Origin: Acidobacteriota bacterium
GTDB lineage: Bacteria; Acidobacteriota; Vicinamibacteria; Vicinamibacterales; JAKQTR01
Length of the DNA stretch: 37,128 nt
Reading direction: 5' to 3'
Assembly: GCA_026393675.1 (NCBI GenBank)
Contig: JAPKZQ010000013.1
Coordinates: 1 to 37,128, forward strand
The translations under genes were made by a program, and so were the position numbers. Below, one piece after another: positions 11,496 to 34,480 of this stretch (its first letter is position 1; each line of letters starts with the position of its first letter). Under the pieces are notes generated by a model. That model did no database searches, was not told the DNA's origin, and worked only from the letters and a program-made list of their open reading frames with translations.

Positions 11496-11561
11496 GGACA
11501 TCTGCCCGACGCGGATGGTGAAGATGGCCGCCGGGCCATGCGCATTCAGGGGCCGACAGAC

Positions 11562-11768
11562 ATGTTCCTGCGACCGACGGGCAGTCGCACGAGGCTCGCT
11601 ACCGGGTGGACGCGGGCCAGGCGACCCGGAGGTCAGGCCATCGTTGAATGGGTGATGATCGCGGGCGTGCTCGCTGCAGTGGGGCTCTTCTTCGGCGCGA
11701 TCATTCCCGGAGCGCTCCGCATCTTTGTCCGGTCACTAGCGCTTGCCGTCAGGACGATCGCGCCATGA
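11562..11768 (+). CDS. Small Flp/class III-type pilin-like protein 1
   Basis: A 68-residue protein with a basic leader of 24 residues ending in GG. The presumed cleavage is before Q25, with the hallmark glutamate at +5 (E29 in QAIVEW), followed by a hydrophobic helix (about 30-52). This is the layout of type IV prepilins of the Flp/Tad kind, where the prepilin peptidase cuts after Gly and Glu+5 guides assembly. The start ATG at 11562 follows AGGGG by 9 bases; an in-frame ATG at 11538 is possible. It overlaps the next gene by ATGA. It is the first of three small pilin-like genes and could be a major or minor subunit; the sequence does not say which. Confidence 0.75.
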   Translation: MFLRPTGSRTRLATGWTRARRPGGQAIVEWVMIAGVLAAVGLFFGAIIPGALRIFVRSLALAVRTIAP

Positions 11769-11968
11769 CACGGCAGCCATCGAGCCGCCTTGCCAAAATG
11801 ATCGATGGGTCTGCCGGCGGCCAGGCCGTAACGGAATACGTGACGCTGCTCGGCCTCCTTGCCACGCTACTTATCTTCATCACCAGCGTACTGACTCCTG
11901 TCCTCGGCTGGTTGGTCGTGCGACTGGTGCAGCACATGTCGGTCTACATGACGGGTTCCGGACCGTGA
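11765..11968 (+). CDS. Small Flp/class III-type pilin-like protein 2
   Basis: A 67-residue protein whose start ATG overlaps the previous stop (ATGA). The leader ends GSAGG, the mature protein would begin at Q20 with E24 at +5 (QAVTEY), and a long hydrophobic helix follows (about 25-50). It differs from its neighbours except around the processing site, so these are paralogous pilin-like subunits rather than recent duplicates. It is probably inserted in the inner membrane, processed by a prepilin peptidase and polymerised. Confidence 0.75.
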   Translation: MTRQPSSRLAKMIDGSAGGQAVTEYVTLLGLLATLLIFITSVLTPVLGWLVVRLVQHMSVYMTGSGP

Positions 11969-12014
11969 CATGCGGACGAGGATGCAGAGCAGGTCGTCTG
12001 GAAAGGGAATGGTG

Positions 12015-12281
12015 ATGAGCGTGACCCATCGCCTGTGTTTCCCGGCGGCATGCGGCCCGGCATCCACCCGGCAATTCGGCTCCGGTTCGCGGGCTGCTGT
12101 CCGGCGCATGCATCGCGGGGAGTCCGGGCAGACTTCAAGCGAGTACGTTGCTCTGGCAGGGTTGCTTGCGGGCGTCATCCTCTTGCTCTTTGCCGGTGTG
12201 TTTCGAGACGCCATGACGGACGCGACCAACTCGATCGCCGAGACGTTGCACGGGGCGGTGGCTGGCATGAGAGTCGACTAA
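12015..12281 (+). CDS. Small Flp/class III-type pilin-like protein 3
   Basis: An 88-residue protein with a longer basic leader. Cleavage is expected between G38 and Q39, with E43 at +5 (QTSSEY), then a hydrophobic helix (about 44-66) and a short amphipathic tail. Its QTSSEY motif is identical to that of the orphan pilin at 34267-34473. I prefer the ATG at 12015 because AAGGGA lies 6 bases upstream; ATGs at 11970, 12009 and 12108 are in frame. The leader is long for a prepilin, so a later start at 12108 (leader of only 7 residues) is a real alternative. Confidence 0.7.
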   Translation: MSVTHRLCFPAACGPASTRQFGSGSRAAVRRMHRGESGQTSSEYVALAGLLAGVILLLFAGVFRDAMTDATNSIAETLHGAVAGMRVD

Positions 12282-12299: not shown

Positions 12300-12767
12300 A
12301 TGACGATACCACGCTCCCCGCGACGACATTGGCGGTGCATCGCACGGATGCGTGGGCAAGCGACGGTCGAGACGGTCGTGGTGATGACGTTCCTGCTGTT
12401 CATGATCTTCGGGTTGATTCACGTCTGCCTGCTGGCCGTAACCAAGTACATGGTCAGCCTCGCCGCGTTTTCCGCTGGACGGGCTCTGATGGTGCACGGG
12501 ACCGGCTGGGTAGGTCAAGCCGCCGCTTGGACCGCCGCGACCACCGTTCTTGACAATCTCCGCTGGTGGAAGTCGGCGTGGCAGCGACTGGTACTGCCGC
12601 CGACGCAAGGAAGACTGGATGGCCGCGAGGGTGTCTTCGTGACGCACCGCGCGCCTTTTGCGTTTCCGATTTTCAATGATCTGCCGTTCGGAGGACTGCC
12701 GGTCACCGCCTTCTCCGCCGTCGCGATCCAGCCAGACATCCCGGAGAAGGGCGACAATGCGGAATAG
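12300..12767 (+). CDS. TadE-like pseudopilin
   Basis: A 155-residue protein with the short basic leader and processing site RG|QATVE typical of TadE-like pseudopilins (G19, Q20, E24). A hydrophobic helix (about 25-47) is followed by an alpha/beta C-terminal region of about 100 residues outside the membrane. TadE-family proteins are minor pilins needed to start or anchor Flp pilus assembly. The gene ends 11 bases inside the next one, so translation is probably coupled. Confidence 0.78.
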   Translation: MTIPRSPRRHWRCIARMRGQATVETVVVMTFLLFMIFGLIHVCLLAVTKYMVSLAAFSAGRALMVHGTGWVGQAAAWTAATTVLDNLRWWKSAWQRLVLPPTQGRLDGREGVFVTHRAPFAFPIFNDLPFGGLPVTAFSAVAIQPDIPEKGDNAE

Positions 12768-13737
12768 CTTGCGCCCGCCACGGAGGACCATGGGGCGCTG
12801 GCGGCGTGACCAGGGCCAGTCGACCGCGCTGGTCATCTCGATGCTGTTCGTCCTCATCCTCTTCGTGGCCGTCGTGGCTGACGTCGGCCAGGCGGTGAAC
12901 CGAAAAATCGCCCTGCAGGTTATCGCTGATACCGGTGCGTTTACGGGCGCGTCGAAGATGGCGGCCCAACTCAACCAGTTGGCGTACTGGAACAAGTTGC
13001 TGCAGCAGGTGTGGGCGGTGTTCAGCTGGCCGATGACTCTGGGAGGGGCTACGGCGGTCGATGGATATGGAGGGTGGTTTTGGCCCGGCTGCGAAGTAGC
13101 CGACCCGATCGAATCGGCCTACTCATTCGTGTGGAGCGCCGTTTCGTACTCGACGTTCAATCCGGTGAATCTGTTGTCCGCGCCGCTTCCCTTTGGCGAG
13201 GCCAGGCGGGTGAGCGACGACAACGCCCTCGATCTGTTTCCCGGGGAGCAGGATCAGCTCGAGTACCGTGAATGGGCACTCGACCTTGGAATTCTCCCCA
13301 GCCGTCCCGTCTGGACACTGGCTGAGACCGAGCAGGTTGACTCAGGTTGGCCGGCAGCTGTCTCGTGGTCACTGGCCCCGGCTCGGCCGACGGTGGTCTA
13401 CACGTGTGCGTACGACACCACGTTCGGGTTGGTGTGGGACGTTCGCTCGCGTCAGTACAATCACTGGTACCGGAAGGCGGATCAGAAGGTCTCGTACTTT
13501 GTGTGGATCGTCAGGTTGAAGAATGAGAAGGTGCGGGCGTTGCTCTTTGACAGTTTGTTCGGGGGCAGGGTCATTCCAGAGATGGAGGCCGTCGCCGTGG
13601 CCAAGGCCGTCGGCGGGTCCATCGAGGACGGCGATTCCACCTACGTCGCGAAGATGGTCCCGGTGTCGAAAGTGATGCTGGCGCCGGTGGCGTACGACAA
13701 CCTTTACGACCTTCGCATGAGGCCGGTGGTGCACTGA
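12757..13737 (+). CDS. TadG-like Flp pilus assembly protein
   Basis: A 326-residue protein starting at ATG 12757, inside the end of the TadE-like gene and preceded by GGAGAAGGG. The N-terminus matches the TadE/G-like pilus-assembly domain: basic leader, DQGQSTALV at about 18-26, one hydrophobic helix (about 25-47), then an asparagine/glutamine-containing helix of the AVNRKIALQVIADTGAF type. It keeps the Gly-Gln processing pattern, but position +5 is Leu instead of Glu, so it may stay uncleaved. The rest is a mixed alpha/beta extracytoplasmic domain of about 270 residues, rich in Trp and Tyr, with no von Willebrand fold that I can recognise. Confidence 0.75.
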   Translation: MRNSLRPPRRTMGRWRRDQGQSTALVISMLFVLILFVAVVADVGQAVNRKIALQVIADTGAFTGASKMAAQLNQLAYWNKLLQQVWAVFSWPMTLGGATAVDGYGGWFWPGCEVADPIESAYSFVWSAVSYSTFNPVNLLSAPLPFGEARRVSDDNALDLFPGEQDQLEYREWALDLGILPSRPVWTLAETEQVDSGWPAAVSWSLAPARPTVVYTCAYDTTFGLVWDVRSRQYNHWYRKADQKVSYFVWIVRLKNEKVRALLFDSLFGGRVIPEMEAVAVAKAVGGSIEDGDSTYVAKMVPVSKVMLAPVAYDNLYDLRMRPVVH

Positions 13738-13738
13738 G

Positions 13739-14263
13739 ATGACTCGCGTGCGTGGAATGCGCTGCGTGGCCGGTCAGGCAACCACCGAGACGGTGCTACT
13801 GACCTGGCTGCTGATCATACTCGTCTGCGCGGCCTTTCAGATCTATCGGGTCAATAACACGATCTTCAGGTCGCTGACTGCCGCACACCAGATGATGTTT
13901 GCGCGGGCCTTTCAACGGAACTGCGCTTCCGATGTGCCTGGATGCACTTATACGACCGACCAGGTGGACAGCGACGTGGGAGCCCGAGTGATCTGGCAGC
14001 CCGATGTTATGCCGGAGGTGGTCGTGCCCGTCGTCGGAATCTTCCGGCCGTATGGGCTTCGACGGGGCCTGCGTCTGAGCAGCAATCGCATCGAGTCCGA
14101 TGATGGCTGCACGGACTTGCCGTGCAAACGGACGAAGATGGGGTCCGGCGCCTATACCGATCCATGGCGTGGCCTGGTCGAGATATATGGCGGGCTGTTC
14201 AGCCCCGACTACTACCGCGACTACATCGATCACAAAATGGCGTACCTGAGAGGGTTCATGTAG
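13739..14263 (+). CDS. TadE-like minor pilin with Cys-containing C-terminal domain
   Basis: A 174-residue protein with a very short leader (12 residues) and site AG|QATTE (G12, Q13, E17). A hydrophobic helix spans about 18-38, with an exposed C-terminal domain after it. The exposed part has Cys in NCASDVPGC and in GCTDLPC, probably two disulphides as in many minor pilins. It begins one base after the TadG-like stop. A structural or tip role in the pilus is likely by family and context. Confidence 0.72.
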   Translation: MTRVRGMRCVAGQATTETVLLTWLLIILVCAAFQIYRVNNTIFRSLTAAHQMMFARAFQRNCASDVPGCTYTTDQVDSDVGARVIWQPDVMPEVVVPVVGIFRPYGLRRGLRLSSNRIESDDGCTDLPCKRTKMGSGAYTDPWRGLVEIYGGLFSPDYYRDYIDHKMAYLRGFM

Positions 14264-14273
14264 AGGGGCGACT

Positions 14274-15149
14274 ATGCGTGGCAGGACTGCAGCGATCGTG
14301 TCGGTAGGGTTGGCTCTTCTCGGGACCCTGCTGATGTTCGTGTACTTGACCAGCCGGGAGAATGAGTTGCTCCAGCTTGGGGCGATGAAGGACGTCATCG
14401 TGACGACGAAGGACCTGTTGGCAAACACCGTCGTCGATGAGACGGTCGTGCAGCGGATACAGGTTCCGGCGAAATACGTCCAGCCGAAGGCCGTGGCCGA
14501 TCTCCGGGAATTAGTGGGACGCGTCGTGATGGTCCCTGTGCCGAAAGGAGCGCAGGTTCTGGGAACCTATCTCGAAGAGGCGGGTCGAACCGCGCTGGCC
14601 TACGAAGTGCCGCGCGGGAAGCGCGCCGTGACGATCGGCGTGTCGGCCGTCACGGGAGTCGGCGGTCTTGTCCGCCCGGGGAACTTCGTGGACATTCTCG
14701 GGACGTTCGAGCTAGGAAGACCCGTCGGCAACCAGGGAGGCCGGGTACAGTACGCCGAGGAGCGGACCGAGACGGCGGTGCTGATGCAGAACGTGCAGGT
14801 GATTGCCGCCGGACGGGAGCACCGGCGTGAGCGCCCGGCGCCCCAACCGGCCAGCGAGTCGGCGGCCCTGTTCCGCGAGCAGGGCCGGCCAGCCGCCCAG
14901 ACCGATCAGCAGCCGATCGTCAGCAACGTGACCGTGCTCGTCGGCATGCGTGAGGCCCAACAGTTGGTGCTTGCGCAGGAGGTCGGAACGCTTACCCTGC
15001 TGCTTCGCTCGAACCTCGACGCCGGGCTGACCGAAGAACTCGGCACACTCGATCCCTTCAAACTGCTTAACATCACCATCCCGGTCAAGCCCCGGGGCGT
15101 CCCCGCAAATATCTGGAGTGAAGTGGGACGCCTTGGCCCGCAGAGATGA
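14274..15149 (+). CDS. cpaB: CpaB/RcpC-type Flp pilus assembly protein
   Basis: A 291-residue protein with an N-terminal membrane anchor (about 7-25), then a SAF domain (about 38-100) and the RcpC/CpaB domain (about 112-285, with LVRPGNFVDILG and the terminal TLLLRSN). CpaB works in the periplasm with the secretin CpaC to form or stabilise the outer-membrane channel of the Tad pilus. A GAGGGG site precedes the ATG. The gene order cpaB then cpaC is the usual Tad order, and the length is normal for the family. Confidence 0.9.
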   Translation: MRGRTAAIVSVGLALLGTLLMFVYLTSRENELLQLGAMKDVIVTTKDLLANTVVDETVVQRIQVPAKYVQPKAVADLRELVGRVVMVPVPKGAQVLGTYLEEAGRTALAYEVPRGKRAVTIGVSAVTGVGGLVRPGNFVDILGTFELGRPVGNQGGRVQYAEERTETAVLMQNVQVIAAGREHRRERPAPQPASESAALFREQGRPAAQTDQQPIVSNVTVLVGMREAQQLVLAQEVGTLTLLLRSNLDAGLTEELGTLDPFKLLNITIPVKPRGVPANIWSEVGRLGPQR

Positions 15150-15158
15150 GACCCTGCC

Positions 15159-16436
15159 ATGAAGACCCGTCCATTTCTGGCCGTCACCTTCGTCTGCTGT
15201 ATCGGTACCCATGTTGCTGCGCAGAGCCTGACCGCTCGCGACTGTCCTCCCTCGTCAAAGCTCGTTCGCGTTGAGGAGTCGTTGTTCGTCAAGGAACTCA
15301 AGACCATCGTTCCTGGATACCCCATCGGGAATGTCCAAGTCGACGATCCCCAGATTGCCGGGTTCAGCCAACTCCCTGCCGACCGAAAGACCCTGACTAT
15401 TGTCGCCCGCTCGGTCGGGACGACGCTTCTCAGCATCTGTGACCAGCAGAACCAGCGGCGGCACGAGATAACTATCACGGTCATTTCTCGGGAGGCGCTG
15501 CAACTGCGACAGGAGTTACGGGGACTGCTCAGGGAATTCCCGTCGGTTGAGGTCGCGATGCTGGCGGGATCATCGGTAGTCACCGGCGCCGTCAGCTCGA
15601 GGGACGATCTCGCTGCCGTCGAACGGATCGCGGCGGCCGCCAAAGTAAAGTGCGTCGTGCGTTACGTTATGCCGTCGGTCCCCCCTCCTGCCATCGGAGC
15701 GGCGCCGTCGGTCTCTCGGCCGCCTGCTGGAGTAGCGCCGTCGACCCAACAGACGCTGCCCACACCCGCGGGCGCCGGCCCTCCCACGTCGAGCGCTGCC
15801 GGACCGCCCGCCCAGCCTACGTTCCGGGTCAGGTACGAGGTCGAGTTGATGGAGGCCAGCATCGCGTTCCGTACTGGCTCGTTCGCGCATGGGGTCGAGC
15901 CAAGCGGTCGTCGCCTTTACCTCGGACAGGTCGAGGTGAACATCGGATCCGAAAACGAGGTCTTCATCGGCGGCGCCGCAGTGGCGCCGAAGGAAGCGAA
16001 GCGCCCAGTAGACGCCCCGACGCAGGCTCCGATGGGCCTGCGCCTGAAGTTCGCTCCGAGAGTCGGAGACAGCAGGACCCCCGTCATTACGGCCGTCCTG
16101 GTCGAAACGAATCTGCCGTTGAACTCCGGGACGTACGATCCCGAGGTGTGGCGTCGATCGCGTTGGGAATTCCCGACGGCCACGAATCAGCCGTTCGGAA
16201 TCGTGGGTGGCGACCTGCTGGCTTCCATGGACGTCGTCTCGCAGGGGCCAGGCGCGCTGCAGACCACAGCCAGCACGGCCTCAAAGATGCGGATGGTTCC
16301 CGGTGTCGGCGGGCTTCCGGGCATGGAGTACGTGCCGGTGTTCGGCAGTCTGTTCGGCTCGCGGTCTTTCAAGCAGAAAACAACGCAGCTGCTCGTGGTG
16401 CTGCGTCCGCAGGTGATTCCGCTCGAGGCCCGATGA
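15159..16436 (+). CDS. cpaC: CpaC/RcpA-type secretin of the Tad pilus
   Basis: A 425-residue protein with a signal peptide (cut near HVAAQ). The pilus-type secretin N-terminal domain spans about 30-110 (LFVKELKTIVPGYPIGNVQV). A BON-like stretch follows (about 125-165), then a long Pro/Ala/Ser linker (about 170-218) and a C-terminal secretin barrel domain (about 220-425). The barrel ends in the typical PVFGSLFGSRSF and TTQLLVVLRP. It should form the outer-membrane pore for the pilus. The proline-rich linker is unusually long for a CpaC and may span the periplasm. Confidence 0.9.
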   Translation: MKTRPFLAVTFVCCIGTHVAAQSLTARDCPPSSKLVRVEESLFVKELKTIVPGYPIGNVQVDDPQIAGFSQLPADRKTLTIVARSVGTTLLSICDQQNQRRHEITITVISREALQLRQELRGLLREFPSVEVAMLAGSSVVTGAVSSRDDLAAVERIAAAAKVKCVVRYVMPSVPPPAIGAAPSVSRPPAGVAPSTQQTLPTPAGAGPPTSSAAGPPAQPTFRVRYEVELMEASIAFRTGSFAHGVEPSGRRLYLGQVEVNIGSENEVFIGGAAVAPKEAKRPVDAPTQAPMGLRLKFAPRVGDSRTPVITAVLVETNLPLNSGTYDPEVWRRSRWEFPTATNQPFGIVGGDLLASMDVVSQGPGALQTTASTASKMRMVPGVGGLPGMEYVPVFGSLFGSRSFKQKTTQLLVVLRPQVIPLEAR

Positions 16437-16490
16437 GACCTCGGCGGCCCGTTCGGGTGCGGTAGCTGACGGCATGCCAGCTTGGCGGTG

Positions 16491-16499
16491 GGAGGAAGG
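16491..16499 (+). promoter_or_regulatory. Strong ribosome-binding site of the fused ATPase gene
   Basis: GGAGGAAGG lies 7 bases before the ATG at 16507. It decides that start over the in-frame ATG at 16474, which has no such site and would add 11 residues. Confidence 0.65.
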
Positions 16500-16506
16500 C
16501 ATCGCA

Positions 16507-18594
16507 ATGCAACGGCGCGCGAAGGTCGTCGGGGTGTTCTCGCCAAGCGGGGGAGTGGGCCGCACTACAATTGCGGTGAATCTCGCGGTCTGTCTCGCCC
16601 AGCAGGACGCGCATCGCGTGCTGTTCCTCGACTGCGCCTGTCCGGTGCCAGGCGAAGCCGCCATGCTGTTCGGGCTGGAACGGGCCAAGTCGCTTGGGGA
16701 CATGGCGCTTCTGCTGGGCAGGCTGACTCCCGAGATCTTCTCTACCTACGTCCTGCGATCGGCGAGCGGCGTGTCCGTGCTTCCGCTCGCGAACGACGTG
16801 CTCCAGTCCCGCTTGATCACGCCGGAGGCCCTGACGGCCTTCTTCGACCTCGCCGGCGCGGTCTTCGACGCGATCGTGATGGACCTGCCGTCCGGTGTCG
16901 GTCCCTTAACGCAGCCGCTGCTGGATCGGGCTGACTACGTCTGCGCGATTGTTGCGCCGACCATGACGGGGGCGATTCGTGCACGCCATGGCCTGGACTA
17001 CCTGCGCACGATCCAGATCCCCGGCGACTCCGTCCTGCTCTGCCTGAACCGCATGCCGGAACGGGGAGGGATCGGGTCCGACCGCCTCGAGCGTCTTCTC
17101 GGCGTGCGGGTTACCGTTGAGCTGCCCGACGATGGAGAGCCCGTCGAGGCGGCCACCGAGCGTGGCATGCCGCTCGTTCTCTCGGCTCCGCGGCACCCGA
17201 TCGCCCGGGGTCTGGATCGCCTGGCCAGGGAAATCGATCGGCGCGGACTTCGGGACCTCAAGATCGGCAGCGTGCCCGCGAGCGCAGATGCACGTTCCGG
17301 TGTGGAAGACGGTATCCGGGCCATCAAGCTGAAGATCCACAAGCGACTCGTCGAGGAGATCGATCTCAAGAAAACAGATTTCGGCTACTTGAGCGATCCG
17401 GTCAAGCTGCAGGAGGTACGCGCCCGCGCCGAGGCCAAGGTGCTGACGCTGATGGACGAGGAGGCGAAAAACGTCACCTCGCGCCAGGTTCGCCGGCGGA
17501 TCGTCAAGGACGTGCTCGACGAGGCGCTGGGCTTGGGGCCGCTGGAGGACCTGCTGGCCGACCCCAGTGTGACGGAGATCATGGTCAATCGCTATGACCA
17601 GATATTCATCGAGCGTAACGGGAAGCTGGAAGCCACCGGCGTCAGTTTCCTCAACCCGGATCAGCTTCGTGGCGTGATCGAGCGGATTGTGGCGCCCGTC
17701 GGTCGGCGCATCGACGAGAAAGTGCCGATGGTGGACGCCCGACTGCCCGATGGTTCTCGGGTGAACGTCATCATCCCGCCGCTTGCCCTGCGCGGCCCGG
17801 CCCTCACGATCCGCAGATTCTCCGCCAAGCTGTTGGGGGTCGACGACCTCATCCGGTTCGGGTCGCTGACCGAACAGATGGCCACCTTCCTGTCGGCGGC
17901 GGTAAGGGCGAGAGTCAACATGCTGATCTCGGGAGGCACTGGGTCTGGCAAAACCACGCTGCTGAACCTGCTGTCCGGCTTCATCCCGTCCGACGAGCGG
18001 ATTGTCACAATCGAGGATGCGGCCGAGCTTCGACTGCCGCAGGACCATGTGGTCGCACTCGAGTCCAGGCCCCCGAACATCGAGGGTGAAGGGGCGGTCA
18101 CCATCCGGGACCTGGTTAGGAACGCGCTGCGCATGCGACCAGATCGGATCATCGTCGGTGAATGCCGCGGCGGCGAAGCCCTCGACATGCTGCAGGCCAT
18201 GAACACGGGGCACGACGGGTCCTTGACCACCGTGCACGCGAACACGCCAAAGGACGCGTTGAGCCGGCTCGAGACGATGGCCTTGATGGCCGGCATCGAG
18301 CTGCCGTCCCGGGCCATCCGCGATCAGATAGCCGCTGCGATCGACATCGTGGTGCAACAGTCCAGGCTGGTGGATGGGTCGCGGCGGATCACCCACATCA
18401 GCGAAGTGCCGGCCGTCCAGGGCCAGGACTTCGAAGTCAAGGATGTGTTCGTGTTCAAGCAGACCGGGATCGAGCCGGACGGGCGGGTGCAGGGGCAGTT
18501 TGTGCCGACGGGCCACGTACCGCTATTCGTTGAGGGCCTCTCGAAGTCGGGGATCAAACTGCCGCGCGAGATATTCCTTCATCAGACAGCATAG
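16507..18594 (+). CDS. tadA: Fused TadZ/CpaE-like and TadA/CpaF pilus ATPase
   Basis: A single 695-residue open frame. Residues 1-245 are a ParA/MinD-like TadZ (CpaE) module without an N-terminal receiver domain. Its deviant P-loop reads SGGVGRTT (14-21), so the P-loop lysine is replaced by R19 and the upstream signature lysine is absent; a Walker-B-like VMDLP lies at 124-128. From about 265 the protein is a complete CpaF/TadA secretion ATPase: N-terminal helical domain to about 340, Walker A GGTGSGKTT (476-484), Walker B RIIVGE (547-552) and the His box TTVHANT (574-580). TadA drives pilus extension and retraction, and TadZ places the machine at the cell pole. The two are normally separate proteins. 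There is no stop or frameshift at the junction (about 245-265), so the fusion looks real. Confidence 0.93.
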   Translation: MQRRAKVVGVFSPSGGVGRTTIAVNLAVCLAQQDAHRVLFLDCACPVPGEAAMLFGLERAKSLGDMALLLGRLTPEIFSTYVLRSASGVSVLPLANDVLQSRLITPEALTAFFDLAGAVFDAIVMDLPSGVGPLTQPLLDRADYVCAIVAPTMTGAIRARHGLDYLRTIQIPGDSVLLCLNRMPERGGIGSDRLERLLGVRVTVELPDDGEPVEAATERGMPLVLSAPRHPIARGLDRLAREIDRRGLRDLKIGSVPASADARSGVEDGIRAIKLKIHKRLVEEIDLKKTDFGYLSDPVKLQEVRARAEAKVLTLMDEEAKNVTSRQVRRRIVKDVLDEALGLGPLEDLLADPSVTEIMVNRYDQIFIERNGKLEATGVSFLNPDQLRGVIERIVAPVGRRIDEKVPMVDARLPDGSRVNVIIPPLALRGPALTIRRFSAKLLGVDDLIRFGSLTEQMATFLSAAVRARVNMLISGGTGSGKTTLLNLLSGFIPSDERIVTIEDAAELRLPQDHVVALESRPPNIEGEGAVTIRDLVRNALRMRPDRIIVGECRGGEALDMLQAMNTGHDGSLTTVHANTPKDALSRLETMALMAGIELPSRAIRDQIAAAIDIVVQQSRLVDGSRRITHISEVPAVQGQDFEVKDVFVFKQTGIEPDGRVQGQFVPTGHVPLFVEGLSKSGIKLPREIFLHQTA

Positions 18595-18598
18595 AGAC

Positions 18599-19465
18599 AT
18601 GGCAGCACTGAAGTACCTGTCGCTCCTGTTGATCGGCCTGGGCCTCTGGCTGGTCACGAAGGTCCTCTACCGGGAGATCTCGGCCTGGTGGGCCATCCGC
18701 ATTGAGGCGTACGCCCAGTGGATGGGCACCGAGTTCGAATCGATGTTCGAGGAGATGTCGCTCGACCGGGCCCGGCGCGTGATCACTTTCGTGGTGCTGG
18801 GGGCGTTCAGTCTTGGCTTCCTGCTCGCCTCCGGCATCGTCGGGCGGCTGCTGCTGGGCACGTGCTTCGCTCTGCTCGGATACTTTGGCCCCAGGTTCGT
18901 CATTGCCTACTGGAAACGGCAGCGGCTCAACGTCATCGACAACCAGTTGGTGGACGTGCTCGTGCTCATGGGTAACGCGCTGAAGGCGGGCATGAACCTC
19001 CAGCAGTCCGTAGAACTGGTGGTTCGGGAGATGAAGCCGCCGATCGCAGACGAGTTTGGGCGCGTGGTGAAGGCCATTCAATTGGGGCGGCTGACCGATG
19101 ACGCCCTGAAGCAGTTGGCGGAGCGTGTGCCGCTTCCCGATCTCAAGCTTGCGGTGGAGTCGATCCTGACGCTGCGTGAGACGGGCGGGGATCTCAGCGA
19201 GACGTTTCACGTGATTGCCAACACGATTGTCGAGCGCAAGAAAGTCGAAGGCAAGATTAGCGCGATGACCACGCAGGGCATGACGCAGGGCGTCGTCACC
19301 TTCATGATGCCGATTCTGTTCCTCGTGTTGTTCACGCTGGTTGACCCGGATTACACACGGCCGCTCTTCGTGACGCCGATCGGGTGGATCATGCTGATTA
19401 CCGTGTTCCTGCTCGAGAGCATCGGACTGTTCCTGATGTTCAGGCTCGTGAAGATCAAGGTATGA
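18599..19465 (+). CDS. tadB: TadB inner-membrane pilus platform protein
   Basis: A 288-residue protein with membrane segments at about 4-20, 60-80, 84-104, 240-262 and 265-285, and a T2SSF/GspF-type domain between them (about 115-235, including LVDVLVLMGNALKAG and the second-half LRETGGDLSETF). This is the TadB half of the inner-membrane platform that couples the TadA ATPase to the growing pilus. It starts 4 bases after the ATPase stop and ends in an ATGA overlap with the pilin-headed hydrolase. Its usual partner tadC is displaced by 2.2 kb, to 21682. Confidence 0.9.
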   Translation: MAALKYLSLLLIGLGLWLVTKVLYREISAWWAIRIEAYAQWMGTEFESMFEEMSLDRARRVITFVVLGAFSLGFLLASGIVGRLLLGTCFALLGYFGPRFVIAYWKRQRLNVIDNQLVDVLVLMGNALKAGMNLQQSVELVVREMKPPIADEFGRVVKAIQLGRLTDDALKQLAERVPLPDLKLAVESILTLRETGGDLSETFHVIANTIVERKKVEGKISAMTTQGMTQGVVTFMMPILFLVLFTLVDPDYTRPLFVTPIGWIMLITVFLLESIGLFLMFRLVKIKV

Positions 19466-20721
19466 AGCGATCGAGCGAGCGGGGCCAGGTCACCACGCAG
19501 TTCGTGGTGCTGACGGGCATCCTGGTGACCGTCACCATCGCGGTGCTGGCCGTCGTGTTCCTTCCCGTTCGCCTGTCGTTCATCAACATCGCTACCTGCA
19601 TCATTAGTGACGTGTGCAAAGAAGGGAACGAGACAGCCCCGGAGGGTCATTCGGTCAGCGTAGACTCCCGAACTGGAGACATCTACGCATGCGAAGTGAG
19701 AAAGGGAAGCGGCGAAAAGTGCTCTTTCTGGGACTCGCTGTGCCTGCGCGGTCCGGAGAAGTTCATTCAGTCGAGTGTGGCTTATACACCCAGAATTGCC
19801 TGTGGATTGCTCGGATATGTGGTCGGATCCGCCGCGTCGTCGTCCATGGGTGGTGTCTTGGCCTTACCTGGCTTTGCCGAGGGAGCCGCTTTATGCGGCG
19901 TGAACACGCAAGACTGGAAGGCCAAGCAGAAGCGGGTTTGGTGCTGTTGCTGCAACATGCAGAACGAGTGTGATGGGACAACGACTTATAAGGGTAACGT
20001 CATCTGCGTACTAAACGACTCAGACGGCTTCGCTGCGGACATAGACGAAACACTAAACGTGATTGATGACATATCCGGGATGATCAAAGGGAACAGGCCA
20101 GGCATTACTGAAAACGACTCTATCAACAGCATGAAGAAACAAATCCTACTGGCCGTTAGCACACATGGTGCGGGCGAGAGAATAGAACTGATCGGACACA
20201 GTGAGGGTGCGGCTATTTTATCTAATGCGATCTGGCAGTTGGTGTGGGAGCAAAAGACGAACGGGACCGGTCTCACACCGGAGGACCTAGCGCGATTGGA
20301 TGTCGTCATTCTCGGTCCAGCCGAATGGCGGTTTCCCAGAGACACGGAGGTAACTTTGTACGAAAATTCTAACGAGAATGCCCTACGCTCCGATCCTGTG
20401 CCTAAGCTAAGCGATAAGTACCGAGAACTGAAGCTTGCCGGCTATAGCAACCAAATGTCTGAGGTTCATCCGGGTACGGTGCAGCCGTGGCCCTGTACCT
20501 TGTTTGACTGTCATGATGCCCAACACTACCTGGAGAATCGCGCGACCGAGGTAGTCAAAGAGGACGGGGGGTGCAAGCCGGGGGTCACGATAATGGTCAA
20601 CGGAATCCGAACCGAAGACGAAAGCCAGCAAGGGAATTGCGATTATTACCAAACCACCAGATATGGGAGTAGACAATGTCTATCGCAGCCGTCTGGTCCC
20701 CGCATTTTCGCGCCGGAGTAG
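19462..20721 (+). CDS. Pilin-headed Cys-rich protein with alpha/beta-hydrolase triad
   Basis: A 419-residue protein. A prepilin-like start (ERG|QVTTQF, G8/Q9, +5 Gln instead of Glu) leads into a membrane helix (about 14-36). A Cys-rich region follows, with 18 cysteines overall including four in a row at 161-164, and a second mildly hydrophobic glycine-rich stretch (about 112-146). The C-terminal half carries the nucleophile elbow GHSEG (245-249, Ser247), a DPVP loop (Asp311) and CHDAQHYL (His351). Spacing and order fit a lipase-type catalytic triad. It overlaps the tadB stop by ATGA. Base composition is lower in G+C than its neighbours: counted G+C is 83 of 180 at 19981-20160, against 39 of 60 at 22141-22200. 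It is probably a pilus-associated or secreted esterase or lipase. The substrate is unknown, and I do not recognise a named family. Confidence 0.75.
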   Translation: MKRSSERGQVTTQFVVLTGILVTVTIAVLAVVFLPVRLSFINIATCIISDVCKEGNETAPEGHSVSVDSRTGDIYACEVRKGSGEKCSFWDSLCLRGPEKFIQSSVAYTPRIACGLLGYVVGSAASSSMGGVLALPGFAEGAALCGVNTQDWKAKQKRVWCCCCNMQNECDGTTTYKGNVICVLNDSDGFAADIDETLNVIDDISGMIKGNRPGITENDSINSMKKQILLAVSTHGAGERIELIGHSEGAAILSNAIWQLVWEQKTNGTGLTPEDLARLDVVILGPAEWRFPRDTEVTLYENSNENALRSDPVPKLSDKYRELKLAGYSNQMSEVHPGTVQPWPCTLFDCHDAQHYLENRATEVVKEDGGCKPGVTIMVNGIRTEDESQQGNCDYYQTTRYGSRQCLSQPSGPRIFAPE

Positions 20722-20755: not shown

Positions 20756-21664
20756 GTGTCACTGATCAGGTGCTTGGTCGCGGGCAGTGTCGTTGCGGCG
20801 GTTGGTGTGTGCGGCAGCACAGAGCCTTTACGCGAGTCGATAGCTGGCCACGCTGTGGTTGCCGCGACCTCCGCCGGTGAGCAGGTTCCTGAGGGAATGG
20901 TCCTGGTCCCGGCGGGCGATTACCTGAGCGGCATCCCGGCCGGCATGTCCGGTGCCAACGCCATTCCGCTTCAGCAGGTCCGAATCAAGGCTGTCTACAT
21001 TGATCGTCTCGAAGTGACGAATGCCCGGTACTACTCGTTCGCGCACGGTAATCCTGCGTGGCAGAGGGAGTCGGTCGATAGGCGTGTTGCCGATGGTCAC
21101 TACATGCGCCAGTTCACAGATGGTCAAGTGTCGAACGAACAGCGTTCATTGCCCGTGACTTGGGTAAGTTGGTTTGCAGCGAAAGCCTTCTGCGAGGCGC
21201 AGCGGAAGAGACTCCCCACAGCGTGGGAATGGGAAAAGGCCGCTCGAGGTACGGATGGGCGAGTCTACCCATGGGGCAACAAGATGGAAAACAAGTTGGC
21301 GAACTTCTGTGACCGCCGGTGTCCCCACTTTCTCAGAGAGGAAACCTGGGACGACGGATTCGCGGGACTCGCGCCAGTTGGTTCGTTTCCGGGCGGGGCC
21401 AGTCCATTCGGGGCGTTGGACATGTCTGGAAATGTGAGCGAATGGGTCAACGACTGGTTGGATGATTCGGGAGAGTACCAGAAGCACCTCCCACGCGTCG
21501 ACCCGGCGGGACCGATTGCCGGCGTCGTCAAAGCGGATCGAGGGGGCTCGTTCATGACCAGCAGCAACTATGGCACGGAACTGTTCCGGTTTGGGGGTGG
21601 TCGACCCGAACGGACGTACATGAACATCGGCTTCCGGTGCGCGATGGACGCGCCGGGCCGTTGA
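20756..21664 (+). CDS. Secreted SUMF1/FGE-like protein lacking the FGE active site
   Basis: A 302-residue protein with a signal peptide (hydrophobic 5-19) and a formylglycine-generating-enzyme-type (SUMF1) domain from about 45 to the end. Typical landmarks are MVLVPAGDYLSG, VTWVSWFAAKAFCE, RLPTAWEWEKAARG, MSGNVSEWVNDW and IGFRCA. At the place where true formylglycine enzymes carry two catalytic cysteines (after RGGS), this one has FMTSSNYGT, so oxidase activity is unlikely. Such domains often act as binding modules. The start is GTG 20756 after a GAGG site; the ATG two bases earlier leads to an immediate stop. It lies between the pilin-headed hydrolase and tadC, so it may be a partner or chaperone of that hydrolase (inference). 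Confidence 0.83.
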   Translation: MSLIRCLVAGSVVAAVGVCGSTEPLRESIAGHAVVAATSAGEQVPEGMVLVPAGDYLSGIPAGMSGANAIPLQQVRIKAVYIDRLEVTNARYYSFAHGNPAWQRESVDRRVADGHYMRQFTDGQVSNEQRSLPVTWVSWFAAKAFCEAQRKRLPTAWEWEKAARGTDGRVYPWGNKMENKLANFCDRRCPHFLREETWDDGFAGLAPVGSFPGGASPFGALDMSGNVSEWVNDWLDDSGEYQKHLPRVDPAGPIAGVVKADRGGSFMTSSNYGTELFRFGGGRPERTYMNIGFRCAMDAPGR

Positions 21665-21681: not shown

Positions 21682-22572
21682 ATGGGTCCACTGTTCTCAC
21701 TTCTTGCGCTCGCGTCGGTGTTCGGAGGGATCGCGCTGCTCAGCTACACGATCCTGACCGAGCGCATGTACAGATTCGCGGTTCGGAAAGTCGGGGTGTC
21801 CGGCGGTGACAGCCGGCAGATCCCCTCAATCGCGTTGCGCCTCATGTTTCCAATGGCGGATCGCGTTGCCCCGTACTTCTCCAAGATCAGATGGCCGCGC
21901 TATAAGAACCGGACGTCCGTCAATCTCCAGCGCGCCGGGATCGGGAGGATCGTCGGCGTGAACCACCTCCTGGCGATGAAAGCGTTCACCGCGCTGGTCG
22001 TGCCGCTGGTGCTCTGTCGTCTGTTTCCCGTCTTTCTCAACCCCGCGCTGTTCCTACTGGGCGGCGCATTGGGGTTCCTCCTGCCGGATCGGTTTGTCGC
22101 GGACCTCAAGCGCTCGCGGGAGGAGAATCTGCTCGCGGCGTTGCCCGGCACCGTCGATGTGCTGGCCCTATCCGTCAGGGCCGGCCTCGAGTTTATGACG
22201 GCGCTGCAGCGCATCGTCGAGCGGGGCGCCCCGTCAGCCTTGCGAGATGAGTTGTCCATCGTGCTCAACGACATTCGCCTCGGGACGTCGAGAGCGGACG
22301 CCCTGAAAGCGTTCGCTGCGAGAGTGGTGATCCCGGCAGTGTCATCGTTCGTGTCGGTCCTCGTGCAGGCCGACATGCTTGGGGCGTCCATAGGGCCGGT
22401 ACTGGAGCAGCAGGCGGAACGCATGCGGGTTGAGCGTTTCCAGCGGGCCGAAAAGGCTGGCGCGCGGGCGAGCCAGAAGATCCTTGTGCCGCTGGTGCTG
22501 TTCATCCTTCCCGCAGTGTTGATCATCTTATTGGGGCCGGTGGCGATTCAGTTCATCTACGGGAAGCAGTAG
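21682..22572 (+). CDS. tadC: TadC inner-membrane pilus platform protein
   Basis: A 296-residue protein with membrane segments at about 5-25, 100-118, 122-140 and 265-290, and a T2SSF-type domain (about 145-260; LAALPGTVDVLALSVRAGLEF and the IVLNDIRLG segment). TadC pairs with TadB in the platform of the Tad machine. I chose the ATG at 21682, preceded by GAGAGGAG; a longer frame would overlap the SUMF1-like gene. The length is normal. Confidence 0.9.
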   Translation: MGPLFSLLALASVFGGIALLSYTILTERMYRFAVRKVGVSGGDSRQIPSIALRLMFPMADRVAPYFSKIRWPRYKNRTSVNLQRAGIGRIVGVNHLLAMKAFTALVVPLVLCRLFPVFLNPALFLLGGALGFLLPDRFVADLKRSREENLLAALPGTVDVLALSVRAGLEFMTALQRIVERGAPSALRDELSIVLNDIRLGTSRADALKAFAARVVIPAVSSFVSVLVQADMLGASIGPVLEQQAERMRVERFQRAEKAGARASQKILVPLVLFILPAVLIILLGPVAIQFIYGKQ

Positions 22573-30171: not shown

Positions 30172-33100
30172 TCAGCGGGCGATGTCGCGGGCACACCGGC
30201 AGCCAATTGCGCCGCTGTCGATGTTGAACGTCAACACCGCTCTCCGGTCAGAAACGCGTAGGTCGTTTCCTAGGAAACGTTCTGCACGCGTGTACCAAGA
30301 TCCGCCTCGCGCCACCGGGTCGGTCCTGAAAGCCGGCTTCCGCTCCCCAGATCCCGGATAGAGTGCAAAGAGGTCTTGCACGAACTCCGACACGTTCCCC
30401 GCCATGTCGTACAGGCCATACCCGTTTGGTGCGTAGGAACCCACGGCGACCGCGCCTTTCGTGTTGGCGAAACGAGCGCCGTTCCGTGCGCCTTCGCGGT
30501 CAGTCGGCTTCTCGTCACCCCACGGATACCTCTTCCCAACAAGTCCCCCGCGCGCTGCGTATTCCCATTCGGCTTCGGTCGGCAGTCGACCGCCAAGCCA
30601 TCGACAGACGCCAGCAGCCTGCCCGTGTGTCACATTCACCACTGGCTGTGTCTCGAGTCGGCTCCACTTCGGCTGCTGGGGCATTGTCTGGCCCAACGCG
30701 CCCGCATATCGCCGAAACACTCCCACCGTTACCTCCGTCGTCATTAAATCGAACGCCGCGCTCAACGTGACCGAGTGGTCTGGCTTCTCGGCCTCGCTGC
30801 ACTCAGGGTCGTCGGCGACACAGCCCATCTGAAACGTCCCTGCCGGCATGTGCGCCCATTGCACACCCGGGACTGGACTCTTTGCCGTCGCAGCTGGAGG
30901 CACGATCGTCGCCAGAGAAGCGGGCGCTTCGCTAGCCTGGAGAGAGACGGCCGATGGGGGCGGAGTGGGAGCGTCCGCACGGAGCTCCTTGAGTCTAGCC
31001 TCGGCGATCGTCCGATAGCTCCCTTGCGGATAGCGCGTGATGTACTCGTCAAACCGGTCCGGACTGCGCAGGTCCTTGATTGACTCCCAGAACGACTCCT
31101 CTGTCTGACGCGCCGTCTCGGTGCCCGCGCGGGCGGCGGTCGCGACACGATCCGCGTCGACAACAGCTGCGGCGAACAACGTCGAAGCTGCCCAAAGTGC
31201 GCGTACTGCTTGTTCGGTTCGACCCAGCCGGTTCCCTTCATCGAGCTTGTCGGTCGCCTTCTGATATTCCCCAGAAGCAAGAGTCGGTGCGCTAACCTGC
31301 GCGGCACGCTTCTTGGCATCGGTGACCCGGACCAGGGCGTCCGCGTGCAGTTCGTCGAACAGGCGAAGAGCATCTGCATCAGCCGGCTTCACCTGCAGTA
31401 CCGAACCGAGAGTGCGCAAGGACACCTCTTTCTCACCCCGAGCAAACTGCTCGCGGGCGAGCGTACGGAGTTCAGCAAGCCGCTGGTCCGGGTCAGCAGC
31501 GGCCGACTCCACGGGCGCAGATGTCATCGGCTGAACCGCTGGCGCCGTCCCGATGGCCGGTTGTTGCTCGCCTGCGTTGCCTACTTGTGGTCTCGGCGAG
31601 CTGGATACCGCGTCACCAGCGAGAGCCTGCCCGCTCGGGCGTCCTCCGAACGACCCGCGCCCTGGTAACAGCACGACGCCGATCACGACCAGCACGGTGA
31701 CGACACCTCCCGCAGCGGCGATCATCCGCCAACCCGGTCGCGCCGACGCCCGCTCGGCGCCGGTCGGCGTCGGACGCGCCCAAGTCTCGCCGCTATGTGA
31801 CGAACGTGCCGTACACTTGGGAGCGATGGATGGGGCTTGATCGAGCAAAGTCACCGTCTCGCGGCATGTTGCGACAACCGTCGGCGCTTCAACCGCGCCC
31901 TGAATCGCGCGCGACTGCTCCTGACATGCACGAGCCTCGATGCCCGCCCGCGCCCGCTCGACCAGCAGGCGCGCCTGCTCCAGGGTTGGCTCGATCGCGA
32001 GAGCTTCATCGGCCGACCGAATAGCGGACTCGTACGCGCCTTCCTCAAGGCGCTTCATCGCGCGGTCGATCGCGGCCCTGGCCTTCCGGGCGTTCTCGCG
32101 CGCACGTTCGACGTCGGCGCGTACCTGCTCGAGTTCCTGCTCGAGGGCGTCCGACGCGACGCGACGCACAAGCGCCGCCGCGCGGTCGGCCAGCGCGGTC
32201 GCCTCTGTGAAGTCCCGTCGCTCGACCGAACGCCGCGCGTCGCTCAGACACGTTCGAACCTCTGCAGTATCCAAAGCGGCTCGTGCCCGTTCGATCAGAT
32301 CGTGGGCGCGTTCTTCCTGCGGGTCGATCGTCGCGGCCCGCTCCGCCTCCTCGATCGCGACCCGATAGTCGCCACGTTCAATCGCGTCCACGCCGACACG
32401 AAGATGTCCCTCGATCTCCTCACGGCGTCGGCGGAGCAGCCGTTCCACATCCGTCGTGCGCCGGTCCCGGCCCGGAGTCGGCGAAGGGGTGGCCGGTTGG
32501 TGTTCGGTGAATCCGGCCGGTCGGACTTCCGCCGGACGCATGCTGTCCTCTACGCACTCCCGCAGGGCTTCAAGATCTCGTCGCATCTCGAGCAAATCCG
32601 GATAGCGTGCACATGGATCCTTGTCGAGCGCACGCGCGATGATCGGGTCAACGCGCCCATCGAGATTCTCGCAGATTCGACTGGGCGGCTCCGGACATGC
32701 ACGGAGAATGCGATCAAGCACCCCGTCCGCGATCGTGCCCGGAAACGCCTTCTTGAAGGTCAGAAGTTCATAGAAGACAGCGCCGACTCCAAAGACGTCG
32801 CTGCGATAGTCGACCTGAGAGCCCTTCAGTTGCTCGGGCGACATGTAGTTGACTGTGCCCACCATCTCGCCCTGGCGCGTGATGGTCGACTCACCGAGCT
32901 GGGCAATACCAAAGTCGACGACTCGCAGCGTGCCATCTTGATCCACCATCGCGTTGCCAGGCTTCACGTCCCGGTGGACGATACCGGCTTGGTGCGCGTG
33001 GGCAAGGCCGCTACACAATTCGGCGATTAACGACAGCTTTTGTGAGAGCGAAAGCGGCGCGCGGCGCCGCACCATCTCCGCCAAACTCTCGCCCGCGATG

Positions 33101-33444
33101 TACTCCATGGCGATGAACGGCCGGCCGTCGACTTCGCCCACGTCGAATACGGTGACAACGTTCGGATGGCGCAAGCGCGCGACGGCGCGCGCCTCGCGGG
33201 CAAACCGCTCGCGAAGGCCTGGGTCGGCCGACAGGTCCTCCTTGAGCAGCTTGATCGCCACCAGTCGATCCAAGCCGGAATCGCGCGCGAGATACAGGTC
33301 TCCCATGCCACCGACACCGAGGCGACGGAGAACCTGATAGCGTCCGACATGGGAAGGCTGGCTGGTCACATGATCACAAAGTTTGTAGGCGACGTCCCCA
33401 TACGCCCAAGGACGCTTCAATAGCCGCCGCGGTACGACCGCCAC
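30172..33444 (-). CDS. Giant Ser/Thr kinase with TM helix and C-terminal SUMF1-like domain
   Basis: A 1090-residue protein. The Hanks kinase (about 35-300) has GVGGMG, K65, HRDVKPGN (157-164), DFG (177-179) and SPE (202-204), all intact. TPR/coiled-coil helices (about 330-510) follow, then a transmembrane helix (573-594). Outside are TPR-like helices (about 655-820, with a FWESIKDL repeat) and a SUMF1-type domain (about 862-1088; MPAGTFQMG, RLPTEAEWEYAARG, MAGNVSEFVQD). The formylglycine catalytic cysteines are missing (RGGSWYTRAER), so the outer domain is more likely a binding or sensing module. The annotated start is GTG 33444 with no clear ribosome site; a GTG at residue 26 or an unseen start nearer the kinase domain is possible. 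It is a stand-alone gene. The secreted SUMF1-like protein in the pilus operon carries the same outer fold. Confidence 0.9.
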   Translation of the reverse strand: MAVVPRRLLKRPWAYGDVAYKLCDHVTSQPSHVGRYQVLRRLGVGGMGDLYLARDSGLDRLVAIKLLKEDLSADPGLRERFAREARAVARLRHPNVVTVFDVGEVDGRPFIAMEYIAGESLAEMVRRRAPLSLSQKLSLIAELCSGLAHAHQAGIVHRDVKPGNAMVDQDGTLRVVDFGIAQLGESTITRQGEMVGTVNYMSPEQLKGSQVDYRSDVFGVGAVFYELLTFKKAFPGTIADGVLDRILRACPEPPSRICENLDGRVDPIIARALDKDPCARYPDLLEMRRDLEALRECVEDSMRPAEVRPAGFTEHQPATPSPTPGRDRRTTDVERLLRRRREEIEGHLRVGVDAIERGDYRVAIEEAERAATIDPQEERAHDLIERARAALDTAEVRTCLSDARRSVERRDFTEATALADRAAALVRRVASDALEQELEQVRADVERARENARKARAAIDRAMKRLEEGAYESAIRSADEALAIEPTLEQARLLVERARAGIEARACQEQSRAIQGAVEAPTVVATCRETVTLLDQAPSIAPKCTARSSHSGETWARPTPTGAERASARPGWRMIAAAGGVVTVLVVIGVVLLPGRGSFGGRPSGQALAGDAVSSSPRPQVGNAGEQQPAIGTAPAVQPMTSAPVESAAADPDQRLAELRTLAREQFARGEKEVSLRTLGSVLQVKPADADALRLFDELHADALVRVTDAKKRAAQVSAPTLASGEYQKATDKLDEGNRLGRTEQAVRALWAASTLFAAAVVDADRVATAARAGTETARQTEESFWESIKDLRSPDRFDEYITRYPQGSYRTIAEARLKELRADAPTPPPSAVSLQASEAPASLATIVPPAATAKSPVPGVQWAHMPAGTFQMGCVADDPECSEAEKPDHSVTLSAAFDLMTTEVTVGVFRRYAGALGQTMPQQPKWSRLETQPVVNVTHGQAAGVCRWLGGRLPTEAEWEYAARGGLVGKRYPWGDEKPTDREGARNGARFANTKGAVAVGSYAPNGYGLYDMAGNVSEFVQDLFALYPGSGERKPAFRTDPVARGGSWYTRAERFLGNDLRVSDRRAVLTFNIDSGAIGCRCARDIAR

Positions 33445-34266: not shown

Positions 34267-34473
34267 CTACTGCGTCGATTTCACGATGTTGCCGGTCAGG
34301 TTCCCAATGGCGGTCATCAACTGCTCCCTGAAGACCACCATGATAGCGATAATAATCGTCACGACTATCCCGGCAATGACCAGGTACTCGCTGCTGGTCT
34401 GCCCGTCCTGATCGCGCAGCCGGTTCCTCAGTCTCGAGCCCGACGCTTGTGCCCACGTCAAGAATCCAAGCAT
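34267..34473 (-). CDS. Orphan Flp/class III-type pilin
   Basis: A 68-residue protein. The leader ends DQDG, with processing expected between G24 and Q25 and E29 at +5 (QTSSEY). A continuous hydrophobic helix (about 31-50) and a short amphipathic tail ending in NIVKSTQ follow. It looks more like a standard major Flp subunit than the three pilin-like genes at the start of the pilus operon, although it lies 6 kb beyond that operon on the other strand. The ATG at 34473 has a near-ideal GAGGAG seven bases upstream, as expected for a highly made subunit. A longer frame upstream of that start has no support. Confidence 0.82.
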   Translation of the reverse strand: MLGFLTWAQASGSRLRNRLRDQDGQTSSEYLVIAGIVVTIIIAIMVVFREQLMTAIGNLTGNIVKSTQ

Positions 34474-34480
34474 GACCTGA

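Follow-up and report, generated by a model that had tools for sequence, protein, structure and literature searches.

The locus studied here raises the question of whether a pilin of a Tad pilus can carry an enzyme, and what such a protein would be used for. The stretch of DNA analyzed (the window) comprises 37,128 nucleotides of an Acidobacteriota bacterium of the class Vicinamibacteria (GCA_026393675.1, contig JAPKZQ010000013.1, positions 1 to 37,128, forward strand). The gene in question, hereafter X, is an open frame at 19462-20721 (+) encoding 419 amino acids (aa), with the N-terminus MKRSSERG followed by QVTTQFVVLTGILVTVTIAVLAVV. On the sequence evidence, it is highly probable that X is a modular pilin joined to a module of a hydrolase family, and we somewhat favor the reading that it is a modular Tad minor pilin showing an effector-class hydrolase at the pilus tip. 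Among named relatives, the nearest TadB proteins belong to Acidobacteria assemblies such as RIFCSPLOWO2_12_FULL_66_21. The original prediction, made from the sequence alone, had proposed a protein of a Tad operon in which a prepilin N-terminus is joined to a domain of the serine-hydrolase type. The fusion is borne out by alignment with pilins at the same slot and by a putative triad whose order and positions match a conserved family. The operon placement holds as well, since the ATG of X overlaps the stop codon of tadB (ATGA) and tadC lies downstream, so that the Tad-operon setting is genuine. A chimeric or frameshifted artefact was ruled out for X, as the frame, the tadB overlap and the operon order are intact.

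The pilin module of X occupies residues 1-55 (19462-19626, +) and consists of the leader MKRSSERG, a hydrophobic helix and Cys46/Cys52. The leader, glycine, hydrophobic helix and phenylalanine of Flp/Tad pilins are all present, and position +5 is Gln. In a Pfam scan of X no pilin model was matched, and the IPR012902-type signature that defines the published modular-pilin set is absent; the module is recognized by its slot and by alignment to the homologous slot pilins alone. With its 419 aa, X exceeds the usual Flp size (typically <100 aa) and is too long for a plain Flp, and it is therefore termed a "modular derivative." The pilin module is followed by a Cys-rich linker at residues 56-178 (19627-19995, +), which includes CCCC at 161-164 and for which a homologue was not found, and then by the hydrolase core at residues 179-360 (19996-20541, +). 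The "18-cysteine region" described earlier is correct in its count, while the cysteines do not form a single region: they are spread over residues 46-406, with 13 within 46-182 and 5 within 345-406.

The slot occupied by X was followed across 193 genomes of its class, 72 of which contain a TadB-like protein. The Tad type of X is represented by 10 loci, the boundary being set by a sharp gap in the TadB matches (from E<1e-130 to approximately 1e-49). A Flp-type pilin follows tadB in all ten, and it lies between tadB and tadC wherever the sequence includes both genes. Among these loci, the hydrolase module was found in that of X alone. Seven slot pilins are short (roughly 50-90 aa) and three are extended, namely X, a 390-aa protein in genome G053 and a 178-aa protein in genome G016. 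The C-terminus of the G053 protein is a calpain-family cysteine protease (PF00648, E=2.5e-28), which matches calpain-9 of the PDB (E=1.1e-14) and retains the Cys, His, and Asn motifs. In the G016 protein (locus L039, - strand), the Flp module is followed by ten prolines and a Cys-rich domain of approximately 80 aa that has no Pfam match and no convincing PDB match. Pairwise BLAST of the three extended proteins revealed homology in the first ~55 residues only (E=4e-12, 5e-7, and 8e-14, the first two being those of X), and nothing significant beyond approximately residue 55. X thus combines a pilin module with a domain that is not pilus-specific, as modular pilins do, and the slot offers one pilin module with three unrelated C-termini, two of which are enzymes by homology. 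The slot may be viewed as a cargo port because relatives bear a protease or a Cys-rich domain there, and the protease at this position suggests that Tad pili may act as interchangeable enzyme carriers. Outside Acidobacteriota, too, the tadB-tadC interval contains a short Flp pilin (the Desulfarculus loci L061, L062, and L064, and L097), and a bare pilin in the slot is therefore probably ancestral.

The C-terminal module of X carries GHSEG (Ser247), DPVP (Asp311), and CHDAQHY (His351) at the positions originally assigned to them, the respective codons being 20200-20202, 20392-20394, and 20512-20514 (all +) for the putative nucleophile, catalytic acid and catalytic base (the last within CHDAQHYL). 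A search of 376 Acidobacteriota genomes returned five matches besides X, of which four were chance and one, L150, was a true relative, scoring 44.3 bits over residues 179-316 of X, whereas shuffled sequences reached at most 20.8 bits. The family gathered from L150 is present in 21 of the 162 genomes of the class of L150, which differs from the class of X. The order VNGI, [GA][HY]SQG, D, H recurs in almost every member. A hidden Markov model (HMM) built from nine relatives, with X excluded, matched X with 31.5 bits (E=7.2e-12 for the whole protein as one sequence), with a hit over residues 180-318. When X and the family were aligned together, Ser247, Asp311, and His351 occupied conserved family columns. 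The predicted triad is thus conserved in homologues, whose identity to X is low (25-30%). His351 is preferred as the catalytic histidine because it aligns with the family histidine; His336 and His355 were considered as less likely alternatives. Only residues 61-419 of X were used in a shuffle test (200,000 shuffles) of a pattern picked after the sequence had been seen: plain GxSxG arose in 23% of the shuffles and hydrophobic-x-G[HYF]SxG in 0.46%, while the latter followed by DPxP...H...Y[LIV] arose in 0/200,000. The actual proof that the motif did not arise by chance lies in the family homology.

The nucleophile elbow, acid and histidine of X stand in the order of alpha/beta-hydrolases, and X is homologous to their members. 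Homology confirms the module as belonging to a serine-hydrolase-type (lipase/esterase class) family; we do not extend this to a lipase sensu stricto, the hydrolase assignment being the one that the sequence supports. Among the relatives, one reached the Pfam model DUF676 (20.3 bits, with a cut-off of 20.3) and the others remained below their Pfam cut-offs, with Abhydrolase_6 and Palm_thioest at approximately 1e-3. The family is not covered by any Pfam or NCBIfam model, and no convincing solved structure was found for it. Searches of Pfam, NCBIfam, and PHROGs returned no relatives of the hydrolase, DUF900 alone appearing at E=0.11-0.22; a profile comparison with DUF900 was weak, 2 of 60 shuffles being as good. 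None were found in PDB sequences, plasmids, phages or viral contigs, nor in genome contigs with the protein as query. AlphaFold models of whole X and of residues 171-419 had a mean predicted local distance difference test score (pLDDT) of 36 and 38, respectively, and Foldseek with the latter model (mean pLDDT <40) returned nothing usable. The proteins L152-L171 and L172-L176 appear to form an unnamed alpha/beta-hydrolase-like family in Acidobacteriota. A further member, L151, is the C-terminal domain of a 942-aa protein on a plasmid of Leptospira noguchii; a 201-aa hypothetical gene follows it.

X and the family (L150/L152-L171, WP_243820818.1) share the core [GA][HY]S-x-G, D-x-V, H....Y. The relatives occur either as separate proteins or at the C-terminus of large ones and carry the VNGI-T strand N-terminally, whereas X is tethered to a pilin and has this strand C-terminally. 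In the relatives the strand lies approximately 27 residues ahead of the core, a place taken in X by the Cys-rich linker. The matching strand of X, VTIMVNGIRTEDESQQG, is found at residues 375-391 (20584-20634, +), after the histidine, and departs from the canonical arrangement, in which the nucleophile comes after the oxyanion strand. The family HMM detects this displaced oxyanion-type strand as a second match, with the order exchanged. For the tail by itself E is 2.2e-4, and when the tail was moved to the front the score was equaled by 1 of 500 shuffled tails. The displacement is probably a circular permutation, the alternative being a truncated second copy of the domain. Cys371, Cys393, and Cys406 near the strand, together with Cys161-182 ahead of the core, could provide disulfide staples.

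The displaced strand and the low identity suggest strong change, and ligand binding is the role of most modular pilins for which one has been predicted (PMC8179133). Both observations would suit a C-terminal module that is an inactive, rearranged hydrolase fold and serves as an adhesin for a surface ligand. This is distinctly unlikely in our view, since X keeps its nucleophile elbow, Asp and His and the sister locus in G053 retains a complete calpain motif set. We regard an active serine hydrolase as the likely state of the module.

The origin of the module is reflected in its composition. The G+C content at third codon positions (GC3) of X is 0.85 in codons 1-60 vs. 0.61 in codons 61-419, a drop that coincides with the point where the homology among the extended slot pilins ends. 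The mean of the operon is 0.787, and in ten other genes no 359-codon window falls below 0.705. The gene had been described as locally AT-richer, which is correct and confined to codons 61-419. The step is weaker in the G053 fusion (0.90 to 0.78), and there is none in G016. At the thresholds used, relatives of the X hydrolase and G053 calpain modules were not found elsewhere in the 193 genomes of the class; an extra match to the hydrolase search at E=0.004 was taken as chance, the long open reading frame there resembling a transporter ATPase. The composition break, the missing class homologues and the swapping of cargo at the slot support the earlier suggestion of acquired cargo. On these sequence features, the simplest reading would be that a resident pilin gene took up foreign cargo, most recently in X. 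The break is also sharp, and the exact fusion was seen in one genome only, as would be the case for a recent chance insertion that is decaying and functionless. We consider such an origin very improbable, given the stop-free frame of 419 aa, the conserved catalytic residues, the translational overlap with tadB and the comparable fusion in G053.

How X might work can be outlined from known systems. Tad-like Kil pili of Myxococcus xanthus combine the small Flp adapters KilK/KilO with KilLMN tips bearing variable domains, and kill on contact; pilus and tips are required for prey killing, while the toxic activity is unassigned to a domain (PMC12075869). The X locus resembles the Kil system in its Tad machinery, its TadE/TadG-like minor pilins, its small Flp minor pilins beside the major pilin and the variable domains exposed on minor pilins. 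It differs in that KilK/KilO are short Flps without extra domains and the Kil variable domains reside on KilN/TadG-like pilins, whereas in the X locus the extra domain is on the slot Flp and is a recognizable enzyme. The prepilin peptidase would cleave X after Gly8, and the pilin helix would join the pilus as an adapter or tip subunit, in the way KilK/KilO link the Kil pilus with its tips. The hydrolase, bulky and rich in disulfides, would then leave by way of the secretin, positioned at or near the tip, and on contact with a cell or particle would cut an ester bond in its surface, probably that of a lipid. That X is displayed on the Tad pilus, most probably close to or at the tip, appears fairly likely, while we give its use on other cells slightly less than an even chance.

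Several points weigh against this mechanism. The 419-aa protein would need to cross the secretin folded, the permuted strand could mark a degenerate enzyme, and cargo was present in only 3 of the 10 loci, each kind once and in draft assemblies. Moreover, the Gln at +5 stands against Glu in all nine other slot pilins and could impair assembly. Glu at +5 is important for filament assembly in type IV pilins; through it a subunit touches the one above, and it is missing from tip pilins of the GspK type. The change to Gln fits a tip-most subunit for this reason, and alternatively it could have weakened assembly. Together with the large Cys-rich linker, it would also suit a protein that is a substrate of the system and not a structural pilin, its pilin-like N-terminus acting as an export or anchoring signal and its hydrolase working in the producer's own envelope or being released in a manner similar to type II secretion. 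This seems unlikely, as the orthologues of the X pilin module are short slot pilins, which carry no further function. The TadG of the same operon likewise lacks Glu at +5, although TadG-like proteins are regarded as tip subunits (PMC12075869).

Predicted enzyme modules on pilins have precedents, and the earlier statement that pilins normally have no enzyme domain was overstated. The modules of modular type 4 pilins (IPR012902 branch, e.g., PilB/PilC of Streptococcus sanguinis) are very varied, and predicted S74 and M26 peptidases are already listed among them (PMC8179133). Those pilins carry the IPR012902 signature, whereas X belongs to a Tad system and joins a Flp-type pilin to a module of a hydrolase family. 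Searches of an open-access library, which lacks most subscription papers, revealed no Tad/Flp pilin described as carrying a hydrolase or a calpain domain.

The gene that follows X was also considered, as immunity-like neighbors had been proposed as a check. In the seven other loci that include tadC and whose slot pilin has no enzyme, tadC lies 10-67 nt after the slot pilin. An extra exported gene between slot pilin and tadC is present in both enzyme-bearing loci vs. none of these seven, a pattern that is suggestive only. In G053 it encodes a 135-aa, exported, lipoprotein-like product without a Pfam match and overlaps the end of the calpain-pilin gene (L043:2048-2455). In the X locus it encodes an exported FGE-like protein of 302 aa (20756-21664, +; PF03781, E=3e-46), found in this locus only among the ten, and the two extra genes are unrelated to each other. 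The FGE-like protein lacks catalytic cysteines in an alignment to human FGE, at the positions that we take to be catalytic there. As cited in PMC13340143 and PMC9765294, FGE-like proteins have been reported as an immunity family of the type VI secretion system (Lopez et al. 2021, J Bacteriol 203:e00281-21). The neighbor would probably shield the producer's periplasm or partner with the enzyme. An immunity-like neighbor is thus present as a candidate. A 1090-aa protein at 30172-33444 (-) has a Ser/Thr kinase-like start and an FGE-type domain at its end, with 35% identity over 177 aa to the FGE-like neighbor. Since a kinase of the same window ends in such a domain, an unrelated role of the neighbor is possible.

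Polymorphic toxin systems (PMC3482391) resemble the slot in their constant N-terminal trafficking part, their variable C-terminal enzymes and a gene immediately downstream. In the slot, unlike in those systems, a pilin takes the trafficking part, and toxicity and immunity are putative; the number of loci is also small. It is conceivable, though less likely than not, that the tadB-tadC slot is an effector-loading site, with a Flp adapter as carrier, a C-terminal enzyme exchanged by recombination (in X a circularly permuted hydrolase of the lipase class, in G053 a calpain), contact delivery at the tip and an exported immunity gene.

The setting of the hydrolase relatives is effector-like in part. 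A gene of approximately 140 aa with the look of an export chaperone stands beside the L150, L173, and L174 hydrolases, and a similar gene is present in L175; by look and position these genes are candidate chaperones, and they have no Pfam match. Two of the inspected loci also include export-apparatus genes, namely a Bac_export_1 gene (L173, E=8e-60) and an export ATPase with an EscN-type C-terminal domain (L174, E=1.5e-25). As these domains are common to flagellar export proteins, type III secretion is likely and not proven, and the L152-L171 and L172-L176 hydrolases are candidate type III effectors. The genome of X itself contains one FHIPEP protein, which may or may not be flagellar.

The remainder of the operon is that of a Tad system (coordinates on the + strand). 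Upstream of X, the TadE-like, TadG-like and second TadE-like minor pilins (12300-14263) have prepilin N-termini, and related loci contain homologues of them in the corresponding position; by comparison with KilLMN, the trio probably forms a tip complex (PMC12075869). They are followed by CpaB/RcpC (14274-15149) and an RcpA-like secretin (15159-16436), identified by PF16976, PF13629, and PF00263, a ParA/TadZ-like domain fused to the TadA ATPase (16474-18594; PF13614 and PF00437) and the inner-membrane platform protein TadB (18599-19465; PF00482). The TadZ-TadA fusion has 706 aa, and the same long protein is present in related loci. Downstream of the FGE-like gene lie the second platform protein, TadC (21682-22572; PF00482), for which the start region favors the ATG at 21682 over the GTG at 21637, and genes with FHA domains. 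Four more Flp-like prepilin frames occur in the window, three of them consecutive at 11502-12281 (+), ahead of the TadE-like gene, and one at 34270-34479 (-).

A recognizable hydrolase such as that of X, together with a protease at the orthologous position, would make it directly testable how other cells are killed or modified by Tad pili. X would carry modular pilins beyond adhesion, to enzyme delivery in the Tad branch. Finally, if the slot is an effector-loading site, it would constitute a polymorphic toxin system borne on a pilus, in bacteria other than the known predators.
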